From a delta proteobacterium ML8_F1 (GTDB lineage: Bacteria; Bacillota; Clostridia; Peptostreptococcales; Acidaminobacteraceae), in NCBI GenBank assembly GCA_002029975.1, contig LQBE01000010.1:15496-76768 (forward strand): 61,273 bases of DNA. The letters run 5' to 3'. Numbering within the stretch: position 1 is the stretch's first letter; each line of letters begins with the position of its first letter. The notes beneath the pieces were generated by a model. It was not told where the DNA came from. It saw nothing but the letters and a program-made list of their open reading frames with translations, and ran no database searches. Position numbers and translations under genes: made by a program. Positions 3,003-46,412 of the stretch are shown here, piece by piece.

Positions 3003-3050
3003 TCAACGTTTTTGACAAGGATTGAACAAATTTGCCGAATTGGCGGGATT

Positions 3051-3073
3051 CCCCCTGCAGTCTTGACAGGGGG
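3051..3073. promoter_or_regulatory. Inverted repeat overlapping the -35 box of the aromatic leader promoter
   Basis: Arms ccccctg (3051-3057) and cagggg (3067-3073, seven pairs in all) flank nine bases that contain the first part of TTGACA. With no T-tract it is not a terminator; its position suits an operator, but no cognate regulator is evident. Confidence 0.3.
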
Positions 3074-3091
3074 CTGCAAAAAGAATACACT
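3063..3091 (+). promoter_or_regulatory. Sigma-A promoter of the aromatic leader/chorismate mutase-shikimate kinase unit
   Basis: A perfect TTGACA (3063-3068), a 17-bp spacer and TACACT (3086-3091). Transcription would begin at about 3098, about 24 bases before the leader peptide start, as expected for an attenuated biosynthetic operon. Confidence 0.75.
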
Positions 3092-3121
3092 ATTGCTAAT
3101 AAAGTATAGGCGGTAGTATAG

Positions 3122-3271
3122 ATGAACAGGACATGGAAGACACAAACTGATTTGGATTTCAATTATTTTTACGGCTGGGGCTATTATTTTTTTAGCGCCG
3201 GCAGTTTTGAATTGAAAAAATCCCTTTCAGTTTCTGAGGTCTATCATGCACCCCGGGAACACCGTCTTTAA
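3122..3271 (+). CDS. Aromatic-amino-acid leader peptide (attenuation peptide)
   Basis: ATG 3122 opens a 49-codon frame that ends at TAA 3269-3271. Ten of its first 24 residues are aromatic, with the cluster FNYFYGWGYYFF at residues 13-24 (codons 3158-3193). It lies between a strong promoter and a terminator directly ahead of a chorismate mutase-shikimate kinase gene, the classic position of a leader peptide for Phe/Tyr/Trp-sensing attenuation. The ribosome site is modest (ggcggt at 3109-3114). The second half of the peptide, after residue 30, is ordinary in composition. Known leaders of this type are best described in Proteobacteria. The assignment rests on composition, position and the RNA pairing described separately; translation has not been shown. 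Confidence 0.72.
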   Translation: MNRTWKTQTDLDFNYFYGWGYYFFSAGSFELKKSLSVSEVYHAPREHRL

Positions 3272-3334
3272 TCAGTCCTCGGACAAGGACATTGAAAAGC
3301 AGGTCAAGGGATTTCAGCTGAAATCCCTTTTTTT
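3218..3334 (+). terminator. Attenuator: terminator with competing antiterminator pairing
   Basis: The terminator is a perfect 24-nt palindrome (3306-3329; aagggattt and aaatccctt are its outer arms) followed by seven Ts (3328-3334). The bases aaatccctt at 3218-3226, inside the leader-peptide frame, are identical to the terminator's 3' arm and can pair over nine base pairs with its 5' arm (3306-3314), which would prevent termination. A further 7-bp pairing of 3144-3150 (aaactga) with 3227-3233 (tcagttt) could compete when no ribosome is stalled at the aromatic codons. Pairings were found by eye, not by energy calculation. Confidence 0.72.
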
Positions 3335-3379
3335 AATGTTCCCAAAAGCACTGGGGTCAATCAAACAAGGAGGTTGGAC

Positions 3380-4255
3380 ATGGCCAGATTGGAAATGCTC
3401 AGAAGGAAGGTTGATGATGTCGATCAGCAGATGGCGGCACTTCTGGAGAAAAGATTGAAGTTGGTCCTCGAAATAATGGAGGAGAAGAAGCACCGGCGCC
3501 TTCCTGTTTTCAGCAAGGATCGGGAGGCGGAGGTCATTGAAAGGGTGGGAAACCATGTGCGCAATCCTCTGCTTAAAGAGGAAGTCCGCTTTATTCACCA
3601 GTATGTGGTTCAGAGCTGCAGAAGAATCCAGTCCAGGAGACTCTTCCCCTACCATATCACCCTGGTGGGGTTCATGGGAAGCGGCAAAACCACCGTGGGG
3701 GTCGAACTTTCGAAACTGCTGGCCATGGAGCAGATTGATGTGGACCAGGTTATTGAAGAACGCTCAAAAATGCGCATCAGTGATATCTTTGAGCACTTTG
3801 GAGAGAAGACCTTCAGAAAAATGGAAAGTGACGTGGTGGAGGAGCTCTCTAAACGTCACAATGTCATTATATTCTGCAGTGGCGGTGGTGTTGTGCTCAA
3901 TGAGAGCAATGTGGAGAACATCAAACGCACCGGTGTCGTGATTTGGCTCAAGGCTTCCCCTGAAGAGATTTACAGAAGAATCAAGGATGATGAGACCCGA
4001 CCCCTGCTCAAGGACGACATGTCCGTGGAAAAAATCAATGAAATGCTGATGAACAGGCTGCACCTGTATGAAGAAGCATCGGACCTGGTGATTGAAACCG
4101 ACCATAAAACCGTGGAGGAGGTCAGCTTTGAAATTGTGGAAAGACTCATGGAGGCTGATTTTGACCGTAAGGTCGATGAAATGGAGGCCGATCCCGCTGA
4201 TCTTGTCCCGAGGGTGATGAAGGCAATGGATGAGGCGAGTGAGTCTTATAAATAG
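3380..4255 (+). CDS. Chorismate mutase-shikimate kinase fusion protein
   Basis: A 291-residue fusion of two shikimate-pathway activities. Residues 1-85 form an AroQ-type chorismate mutase (chorismate to prephenate), with R9-K10 and D13 in the first helix, K28 and the R48-E49/E52 region in place. Residues 90-260 form a shikimate kinase: Walker A GFMGSGKTT (97-105), DVDQVIEE (120-127), FRKMES, SGGG (167-170) and DETRPLL (204-210). Start ATG 3380 lies six bases after AAGGAGG; the in-frame TTG at 3374 abuts that site and is unlikely. The gene follows an attenuator with an aromatic leader peptide, which fits a biosynthetic role. The order of the two domains does not correspond to consecutive pathway steps (kinase acts before EPSP synthase, mutase after chorismate synthase). 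Confidence 0.9.
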   Translation: MARLEMLRRKVDDVDQQMAALLEKRLKLVLEIMEEKKHRRLPVFSKDREAEVIERVGNHVRNPLLKEEVRFIHQYVVQSCRRIQSRRLFPYHITLVGFMGSGKTTVGVELSKLLAMEQIDVDQVIEERSKMRISDIFEHFGEKTFRKMESDVVEELSKRHNVIIFCSGGGVVLNESNVENIKRTGVVIWLKASPEEIYRRIKDDETRPLLKDDMSVEKINEMLMNRLHLYEEASDLVIETDHKTVEEVSFEIVERLMEADFDRKVDEMEADPADLVPRVMKAMDEASESYK

Positions 4256-44964: not shown

Positions 44965-46170
44965 TCACAGGTCAAAGGCCTCGGCAATTTTTTCAACAGC
45001 CAGGGAAAAATCATCCCGGTGCACAGTGTAGGAGATGCTGATTTCTGATGTGGTCACCTGGTAGAAGTGGATATTGTTTTCGGCAAAGATATTGAAGACC
45101 TTCGAAGCGACACCGGACTGGGAAACCATGCCGACCCCCACCACCGAGAGCATCACCAGTTCCTCGTTGAAGGAGAATGCGCAAGTGGGATTCTTTTCTT
45201 TGAGCGCTCCAAGGACGGTTTTCAGTTCGTTGAGGTCGTCACTGTCAATGGTAAAGGCGATGCTCACATTCCCGCCGATGGGAGGGGTGAGACTGATCAT
45301 GTCGACGATGATGTTGTGTCTGGAAATCTCCTTGAAGACCTCGGCTACGGTTGTTGAATTGAAGGGAAGCTGGCTGACGGAAACCATGATGATGTTTTCA
45401 TTGAGGGACATACCGGTGACGGCTTTTTTTTCCATTTCAGGGGAAACCTCCTTGATCAAGGTGCCTGCTATTGCCATGGTGTTGTGGGCAATGGTGATGG
45501 GGACCTTGTATTTATGACCCATTTCAATGGCCCTGGCATCGATGACTCCGGCACCGAGGGAGGCCATTTCAAGCATTTCATCGTAACTGATGGTTGTGAG
45601 TTTTTTGGCTTTTGGATATTTTCTGGGATCAATGGTGTACACCCCGTCGACGTCAGTGTAGATTTCACAATTGGCTCCGAGGACGGCGGCCAGGGAGACT
45701 GCCGTGGTGTCGGAGCCGCCCCGGCCCAGGGTGGTGATATCGCCGTTTTCAGTGACGCCTTGAAAACCGGCCACCACTACGATATGGTCATTCTTCAGAT
45801 GGGACTGGATATTCTCATGGTCGATGTTGTGGATTCGGGCCTTGGAATGGGTGGTGTCGGTAAGAATTCTGGCCTGGGCTCCTGTCATTGAAATGGCTTT
45901 GACTCCCAGGGATTTGATTGCCATGGTCATGAGGGCGATGGTGACCTGTTCACCGGTGCTGAGGAGCATGTCCATTTCCCTTTTGTCGGGATTGGGAGTG
46001 ATGGCCTTGGCCATGCCCACCAGTTCGTCGGTTCTTTTTCCCATTGCCGAAACCACGACAACCAGGGATTCTCCCTGACGTTTTCTACTGACCAGTTTTT
46101 CGGCGATTACCTGGATTTTTTGAGTGGTGCCCACTGAGGTGCCGCCGAATTTGACTACGGATGTCTGCAT
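44965..46170 (-). CDS. lysC: Aspartate kinase
   Basis: A 401-residue aspartokinase. The kinase domain starts with VVKFGGTSVG and has VVVSAMGKRTDELV and TTLGRGGSDTTAVSLA; two ACT domains follow (about 265-400) and probably bind an end-product amino acid. Start ATG 46170 lies after AAGGAGG (minus strand, 46188-46182); an upstream extension would run through the riboswitch terminator. A lysine riboswitch precedes it, so the lysine/diaminopimelate supply controls it at the RNA level, and probably also at the enzyme level. It makes aspartyl phosphate for lysine, threonine and methionine synthesis. Confidence 0.95.
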   Translation of the reverse strand: MQTSVVKFGGTSVGTTQKIQVIAEKLVSRKRQGESLVVVVSAMGKRTDELVGMAKAITPNPDKREMDMLLSTGEQVTIALMTMAIKSLGVKAISMTGAQARILTDTTHSKARIHNIDHENIQSHLKNDHIVVVAGFQGVTENGDITTLGRGGSDTTAVSLAAVLGANCEIYTDVDGVYTIDPRKYPKAKKLTTISYDEMLEMASLGAGVIDARAIEMGHKYKVPITIAHNTMAIAGTLIKEVSPEMEKKAVTGMSLNENIIMVSVSQLPFNSTTVAEVFKEISRHNIIVDMISLTPPIGGNVSIAFTIDSDDLNELKTVLGALKEKNPTCAFSFNEELVMLSVVGVGMVSQSGVASKVFNIFAENNIHFYQVTTSEISISYTVHRDDFSLAVEKIAEAFDL

Positions 46171-46189
46171 ATTGAATGATGGCCTCCTT

Positions 46190-46226
46190 AAAAAAATAAA
46201 AACCATAGGCAAAAGGAAACCTATAG
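46190..46226 (-). terminator. Terminator of the lysine riboswitch
   Basis: On the minus strand CTATAGG and CCTATGG form a 7-bp stem (one G-U), followed by GTTTTTATTTTTT. The aspartokinase ribosome site follows immediately, so termination here blocks expression. Confidence 0.7.
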
Positions 46227-46412
46227 TGTCGACACTATGCTTTCCCTGGGCATAAAAAGCGCTTGAAGCTTCTTTTGGGATAGAAACTCCAAAGTCCTGC
46301 ATCTCTTAAATGCAAGCCCAACGGCCGGAATCCGGCTGTTTCGGCATCTTCCCCTTTCCCTGTCGTCCAGGTACTCTTGTCGGATGCAACCTCTTTAAAT
46401 GCACCTATGAAA
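46227..46412 (-). promoter_or_regulatory. Lysine riboswitch (L box) upstream of aspartate kinase
   Basis: Read on the minus strand, the leader contains the L-box conserved elements in order: TAGGTGCA, the loop segment GAAAGGGGAAGATGCCGAA, GGCCGTTGGGCTTGCAT, and the closing GGAGTTTCTATC that pairs with the 5' strand of P1. This agrees with the Bacillus lysC leader as remembered. A 16-nt palindrome (ATAGTGTCGACACTAT) lies between the aptamer and the terminator and may contribute to switching. Lysine binding would favour the terminator. Confidence 0.88.

Follow-up and report, generated by a model that had tools for sequence, protein, structure and literature searches.

A predicted leader-peptide attenuator with a hairpin inside its aromatic codons, before a chorismate mutase-shikimate kinase gene and before aroF in many Bacillota

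The chorismate mutase type II-shikimate kinase (CM-SK) fusion gene at 3380-4255 (+) of the window, the 61,273-nucleotide stretch of DNA analysed here, is preceded by what is very probably a ribosome-mediated transcription attenuator reading the supply of charged aromatic tRNAs, as judged from sequence comparison and folding. The element appears to be one copy of a conserved and widespread aromatic leader family, carried by many anaerobic bacteria before genes of phenylalanine, tyrosine and tryptophan synthesis, and not a device special to the CM-SK gene. Judging by its sequence, the same device stands before aroF in the window genome and in many Bacillota, which points to a control of the first step towards the aromatic amino acids that Clostridia and other Bacillota have in common.

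The leader frame in the window is preceded by a sigma-70-type promoter (3063-3091, +; TTGACA at 3063-3068 and, after 17 nucleotides, TACACT at 3086-3091) and a weak Shine-Dalgarno-like AGGCGG (3108-3113), the latter identical in Clostridia bacterium isolate M55B163 (G001), the sole other species of the genus returned by the searches. An ATG frame of 49 codons follows (3122-3271, +), which encodes FNYFYGWGYYFF and has homologues among leaders elsewhere. Ten of its first 24 residues are aromatic, and a density of nine aromatic residues per 12 is unique to it among the 822 open reading frames of at least 20 amino acids in the six frames of the window, the runners-up reaching seven. The frame crosses the antiterminator strand (region 2, 3218-3226, AAATCCCTT), where it reads KKSL, and stops at 3269-3271. 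Between this stop and the terminator, folding places a small hairpin, GTCCT...AGGAC (3275-3290), which is kept in G001. The intrinsic terminator (3306-3334) consists of a perfect palindrome of 24 nucleotides (3306-3329) and a T run, giving a U tract at 3330-3334, and its 5' arm, region 3 (3306-3314, AAGGGATTT), is the exact complement of region 2. The CM-SK gene has its own Shine-Dalgarno sequence, AAGGAGG (3367-3373), and its product of 291 amino acids matches Pfam CM_2 (58.1 bits) and SKI (168.1 bits). The original prediction, made from the letters of this DNA, had named the promoter, the 49-codon frame with its ten aromatic residues, the palindromic terminator and the 9-bp match able to dissolve it, and all four are present. 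It had also proposed folding the RNA, and all of 200 dinucleotide shuffles indeed fold less well than the leader (z -3.67). Three features had been absent from it: a central hairpin within the aromatic codons (3174-3202; -15.4 kcal/mol, equalled by 2 of 200 shuffles, with a G.G mismatch at 3179/3197), a helix between region 1 (3154-3164) and its partner at 3210-3223, referred to as 1:2 and predicted to be the anti-antiterminator, and the extension of the frame across the antiterminator strand.

From this arrangement we infer translation, stalling, tRNA sensing, polymerase pausing and a direction of response, which would be linked as follows. RNA polymerase would start near 3098 and make the leader, with a ribosome translating the aromatic frame behind it. 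When Phe- or Tyr-tRNA (possibly also Trp-tRNA) is short, the ribosome would stall in codons 13-24, masking region 1 and the central hairpin and leaving region 2 free; region 2 would then pair with region 3, no terminator would form, and the CM-SK gene would be transcribed. With charged tRNAs available, the ribosome would pass region 2, regions 1 and 2 would pair behind it, region 3 would pair with region 4, and transcription would stop at about 3334. As the stop codon in the window lies beyond region 2, the switch would be turned off when 1:2 forms again in the wake of the ribosome. The central hairpin is the probable cause of a polymerase pause about 11 nucleotides downstream, in which the ribosome would gain time to catch up.

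Folding with a modelled ribosome, in a model that ignores helices crossing the ribosome, gives the window RNA before region 4 is made a 2:3 pairing probability of 0.001 when no ribosome is present, of 0.71-0.94 with a ribosome at codons 1-28, and of 0 from codon 29 on. The codons of the aromatic cluster all lie inside the 1-28 range, and since any stall in that range gives an equal answer, the folding does not single them out. For the full RNA at equilibrium the probability of the terminator (3:4) is 0.92-0.97 whatever the ribosome position, so that the choice between terminator and antiterminator must be kinetic. Across the family, 2:3 becomes more probable in 35 of 55 leaders and less so in six when a ribosome sits at the core, and in ten (L087, L090, L096, L097, L103, L104, L106, L113, L122 and L128) 2:3 is at most 0.05 with the ribosome stalled; this calculation is coarser, with a fixed starting point, and gives the window a no-ribosome 2:3 value of 0.25, against 0.001 above.

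The family was collected from genes for DAHP synthase (aroF). The aro operon of the window genome (DAHP synthase, tyrA, aroA, aroC and CM-prephenate dehydratase, named from our own reading and searches) has an aromatic leader, SSYFYYFFSLGFYYGAGNFALKN, and a terminator. DAHP-synthase matches occur in 98 of 118 relatives, and 62 of the 70 upstream regions examined contain a leader frame by a density filter, with a peptide consensus of about YFxFYWGFYFFSAGYFAWKK. That filter is too strict, because at least three of the eight regions it left without a leader (L102, L132 and L138) do carry one. Together with two leaders at CM-SK genes, the 62 make a collection of 64, of which 55 were anchored on a common core and served as the source of a covariance model, R1. 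The nine that the regular expression could not anchor are L107, L116, L121, L125, L127, L129, L133, L137 and L140, and several of them resemble a different aromatic leader without the hairpin. Such a leader stands before aroF in L116, L121 and L129 (family f10), with runs such as YYYYYFF. L137 and L133 (genomes G008 and G026) have two successive aromatic leader frames.

R1 matches 59 of the 118 relatives (E <=0.01), 49 of 391 class genomes and 14 of 398 phylum genomes (both E <=0.001), covering 30 family labels in all; the absence of R1 from a genome is not proof, because the large searches used strict filters. Its places in relatives number 75: at 62 an aroF gene follows on the same strand, no more than 471 nucleotides away, and at seven, in four genera, CM-SK follows. 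Single places precede a shikimate kinase (SK) gene alone (G096), a pheA-type gene (G047), aroQ (G054; PF01220) and a sodium:solute symporter gene (G096; PF00474), and two are unclassified (G087 C28, beside a masked stretch, and G029 C40, at a contig end). The class search listed 51 places; the 28 examined comprise 25 before aroF and one each before CM-SK (the window), tyrA and aroB, and all 12 places added by the phylum search precede aroF. In the window genome R1 has two matches at E <=1, at CM-SK and at aroF. A search with the pattern YFYGW had matched 83 of 393 genomes and, in the 14 plus-strand loci among the 30 fetched, showed no aromatic leader beyond those of the window and G001; it was superseded by the covariance model. 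None of the leaders tested matched Rfam 15, nor did any leader peptide tested match Pfam or NCBIfam, and at loose thresholds Rfam returned chance or neighbour matches only: SmY on the other strand (E 2.2) and, at L196, a T-box and Ref64 beside the leader, again on the other strand. The outcome is a searchable model with a list of target genes. Some individual loci have unusual arrangements. Two tandem aromatic leaders precede one aroF at L084 (G152:C33 466131-466591), and two consecutive aroF genes have one leader each at G097:C66 42081-44875 and at G105:C65 240496-243186. The leader before the symporter gene (L185, G096:C1:82770-82915) suggests that this protein transports an aromatic compound.

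The core codons of the 55 leaders read NNC-TGG-RGC-(aromatic)-AGC-GCN-RGN, and as RNA they form the central hairpin, with the stem C-U-G-G-(R)-G-C-U / A-G-C-(G)-C-Y-R-G and a purine-G mismatch in 50 of the 55. Comparative support for this hairpin is strong. In A2, a MAFFT alignment of the leaders built without structure, 94.7% of cells are paired and none of 500 shuffles reaches the observed covariation; A3, which holds 48 leaders retrieved afterwards as a separate set and aligned by fitting to the model, gives 94.0% and again 0 of 500; in either alignment slid registers reach at most 48% pairing. In five leaders Trp is replaced by a TTG-encoded Leu, and in all five the Ala codon is then GCA, the G-Y pair becoming U-A. 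An A at that stem place faces U in eight of nine rows of the two alignments; in the exception, L139, we read a matching stem whose 5' side is frame-shifted by one nucleotide and was offset by MAFFT. A3 holds three of the A-U rows and also eight rows with U opposite C or U, unpaired, and A2 has one such unpaired row. Because the Trp-to-Leu leaders carry this compensating change, the conservation of Trp is partly explained by the RNA hairpin.

The same codons bear on whether the peptide itself could be the signal. TnaC is a nascent-peptide arrest system, and on its model a peptide with W-G...S-A-G would sense a free aromatic compound and stall in the exit tunnel, which would agree with non-aromatic residues being conserved across many families. 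Yet the conserved residues track the hairpin: besides the pairing of TTG-Leu with GCA, the motif Ser is AGC in 51 of the 55 leaders, the G/S codon is RGC in 50, and the codon that starts at nucleotide 11 past the hairpin varies in residue (W, Y, C, F and L are examples) with T as its first base in 55 of 55. Codon counts and compensating changes of this kind indicate a constraint on the RNA, and the arrest reading of W-G and S-A-G was dropped as very unlikely. The leader is a clear case of conserved leader-peptide residues being the shadow of an RNA hairpin.

If the RNA is what is conserved, the hairpin with its R.G mismatch might instead bind a metabolite or a protein in the manner of a riboswitch, the aromatic frame being a by-product of U-rich RNA. 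Conservation of the hairpin in sequence, beyond its pairing, is what such an element would show, and in our reading the 5' arm of L139 keeps its RNA sequence despite the frame shift of one nucleotide. The frame, however, is kept aromatic and not merely U-rich, since the 1199 core codons include 322 TTY codons for Phe and 280 TAY codons for Tyr against 32 TTR codons for Leu, and the positions of region 2 and the terminator arm relative to the frame are those that an attenuator requires. A binding element of this type is therefore improbable, and a leader peptide read by the ribosome remains the preferred reading.

As to the amino acids sensed, codons for Phe and Tyr occur in every one of the 64 leaders collected and of the 37 counted from the class and phylum searches, and Trp codons in 54 and 26 of these, respectively; five of the 55 core leaders have no Trp codon, the aroF copy of the window genome among them. 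Since Trp is missing in those five and present in 26 of 37, sensing of Phe and Tyr is the safer claim, with Trp optional. That one switch senses all three aromatic amino acids, as originally proposed, is not established, given that part of the Trp conservation is due to the hairpin.

Every leader has a terminator past its core, both among the 55 and among the 48 of the separate set; of 275 shuffled stretches, 0.4% score as well as the weakest of these, so comparative support for 3:4 is strong. Region 2 lies about 80 nucleotides past the core start (median of the 55 leaders), mostly within the 3' part of the frame, and its pairing with region 3 changes sequence from leader to leader, as in CUUUCUAAUGAG with CUCAUUAG, UCUAAGA with UCUUAGA, and AAAUCCCUU with AAGGGAUUU. 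Own arms out-pair permuted arms among 15 representatives chosen by shared 8-mers (p 0.00175), among 21 after six were added by hand (p 0.0002) and among 16 leaders of the separate set (p 0.00165). A crude ungapped score gives p 0.012, and 16 of 55 leaders pass a per-leader shuffle test at the 5% level. The comparison thus supports the 2:3 antiterminator well. For the 1:2 helix, formed around the central hairpin, comparative support is moderate, and sequence comparison establishes it less firmly than the leader, the hairpin, the terminator and 2:3: taken alone in A2, 57.2% of cells are paired, its covariation is matched or exceeded in four of 500 shuffles, and shifting the register by one gives a like score (0.197 against 0.195). 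In A3 pairing rises to 69.6%, with 0 of 500 shuffles and every slid register lower, a stronger result, though one from an alignment fitted to the model.

An R1 leader precedes CM-SK in the window genome (G000), G001, G017, G029, G061, G094 and G097, seven loci that span four genera (g1, g17, g40 and g61) and three families. The core peptide of G001, DFNYFYGWGYYFFSAG, differs from the window at three bases, all synonymous, and the promoter hexamers (TTGACA-17-TAAACT), region 2, the small hairpin and the terminator are kept there. Its leader has 30 codons, a difference of one nucleotide ending the frame before region 2. In G061 and G094 the frames cross region 2 (NKSL) as in the window, so that the frame of 30 codons looks derived, or else stems from a sequence error in G001. 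Promoter-like hexamers lie immediately upstream of six of the seven leaders, those of G017, G029, G061 and G097 being judged by eye, and no clear hexamers were seen directly upstream of the leader of G094. Of the genomes searched, those whose fusion genes come nearest beyond the genus are G061 (70%) and G094 (68%), and both carry AAAUCCCUC with GAGGGAUUU, a two-sided change relative to the window; the full region 2 and 3 pairs are AAATCCCTT/AAGGGATTT in the window, AAATCCCTC/GAGGGATTT in G061 and AAATCCCTCC/GGAGGGATTT in G094. With the conserved leader and the alternative pairing, this two-sided change gives the proposed ribosome-attenuation architecture good support from comparison.

Many other fusion genes have no such leader. 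A set of 61 genomes has 16 fusion places of near-full length, spread over 14 genomes, and the leader was found at four of them, those of G000, G001, G017 and G029; the leader-bearing loci of G061, G094 and G097 come from outside this set. The fusion genes of G002 (two), G022 (two), G037, G039 and G050 are without such a leader within 420 nucleotides, and R1 matches none of the fusion genes in G043, G048, G052, G054 and G059; the fusion of G048 has an aroB gene before it, and that of G059 (L015, G059:C103) belongs to a triple AroE-CM-SK fusion 559 amino acids long. The original prediction had staked itself on related loci conserving the leader frame, its aromatic codons and both pairings. The closest loci keep the frame and the pairing, and aromatic codons, terminator and 2:3 are conserved in the aligned leaders, but the expectation does not extend to the 12 fusion places without the leader. 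Those 12 places, and a terminator stable by itself, would also suit a reading in which a premature terminator regulates nothing and the aromatic frame arose by chance; this is nonetheless hardly credible with the parts conserved at seven CM-SK loci of four genera and before the aroF of many families. The window genome also has a second shikimate-kinase-like gene (L073:3252-3752 (-), G000:C19; PF01202, 92.9 bits). At its expected P-loop site it reads GLYGSEKS, and the G001 counterpart (G001:C32) reads GFHGSEKT; should this P-loop form lack activity, the shikimate kinase at work may be that of the CM-SK fusion.

The central hairpin may have a further role in transcription. The nucleotide 11 past its last conserved pair, position 3212 (+) in the window, is U in 55 of 55 leaders and in 46 of 48 of the separate set, and nucleotide 5 is U in all 55 and in 47 of the 48. 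The U at nucleotide 11 is not kept for one amino acid, since the codon there encodes different residues. A U fixed at this distance suggests a polymerase pause, with 3212 as the putative pause site. The NusG of the window genome reads VRNT at what is probably its contact place, judging in part by the residues named in PMC12288461. NusG-dependent pauses of Bacillus subtilis, as passages of PMC12288461 describe them, combine a hairpin, 11-12 nucleotides before the paused 3' end, with T-richness over -11 to -6, and are used in leaders with a leader peptide, such as tlrB. In position the present leaders fit a hairpin-stabilised, NusG-type pause, which has its hairpin ending 11-12 nucleotides before the RNA 3' end, the place where their fixed U would fall, but the exact TTNTTT at -11 to -6 occurs in only nine of the 55 leaders and NTNTTT in 32, and aromatic codons also demand T-richness. 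Taking these points together, we tentatively propose, at a little less than an even chance, one ancient attenuator class across Bacillota that has moved among aroF, aroB, aroQ, SK, CM-SK, pheA, tyrA and a transporter gene. Its control codons would fold into a sequence-conserved hairpin that halts polymerase 11 nucleotides downstream in the NusG manner until the ribosome melts it, one element thus signalling the pause, sensing the codons and forming part of the anti-antiterminator. How polymerase pausing is coupled to ribosome arrival becomes testable at one conserved site.

Leader-peptide attenuators are known from enteric amino-acid operons (trpL, pheL, hisL and ilvL). The present leaders resemble them in a short frame rich in codons for the end product, in mutually exclusive terminator and antiterminator, and in ribosome position deciding between the two. 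They differ in that region 1 lies at the 5' edge of the aromatic codons (window) or upstream of them (aroF copies), in that the aromatic codons form a conserved hairpin, and, compared with the E. coli trp scheme as well, in a stop codon beyond region 2 (window and most copies). T-boxes and TRAP are the better-known aromatic controls in Clostridia and other Bacillota; a T-box reads tRNA charging and controls a terminator, and a TRAP-regulated leader has an array of GAG/UAG triplets. Aromatic control in low-GC Gram-positive bacteria was reportedly treated by Panina et al. in 2003. Like a T-box, the present leader would read tRNA charging and control a terminator, but it would act through translation, and it has no T-box match: RF00230 matches nothing in the window at the gathering threshold, nor in 3040-3380 at E <=5. 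The remark in the original prediction that T-boxes are a familiar solution in this lineage is apt, as RF00230 has 18 matches in the window genome, five of them above the Rfam cut-off, and trpE lies just behind a match that scores below it.

A search of the open-access PMC literature found no description of the present element. Among the closest published systems is the uORFC-13-1 motif, which shares with this family an upstream frame with a Phe-coding U run and a terminator before aroF; the parts of PMC8632094 concerned report it only from Acholeplasma and environmental sequences, with 24 representatives and at least one Phe. His and Leu leader-peptide attenuators of Firmicutes, with residue runs and alternative hairpins, concern other amino acids, and the relevant passages describe neither an embedded hairpin nor an aromatic regulon (PMC2965389, PMC9413887, PMC5794164).

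Elsewhere in the window, four tRNA genes (1662-1979, +) lie 5' of two nucleoside-gate membrane protein genes that precede the leader. A lysine riboswitch (46249-46403, -; RF00168, 72.6 bits) precedes a frame of 445 amino acids (44965-46302, -) that we read from its sequence as aspartokinase-like; since its called start codon falls inside the riboswitch, the true start is probably downstream.
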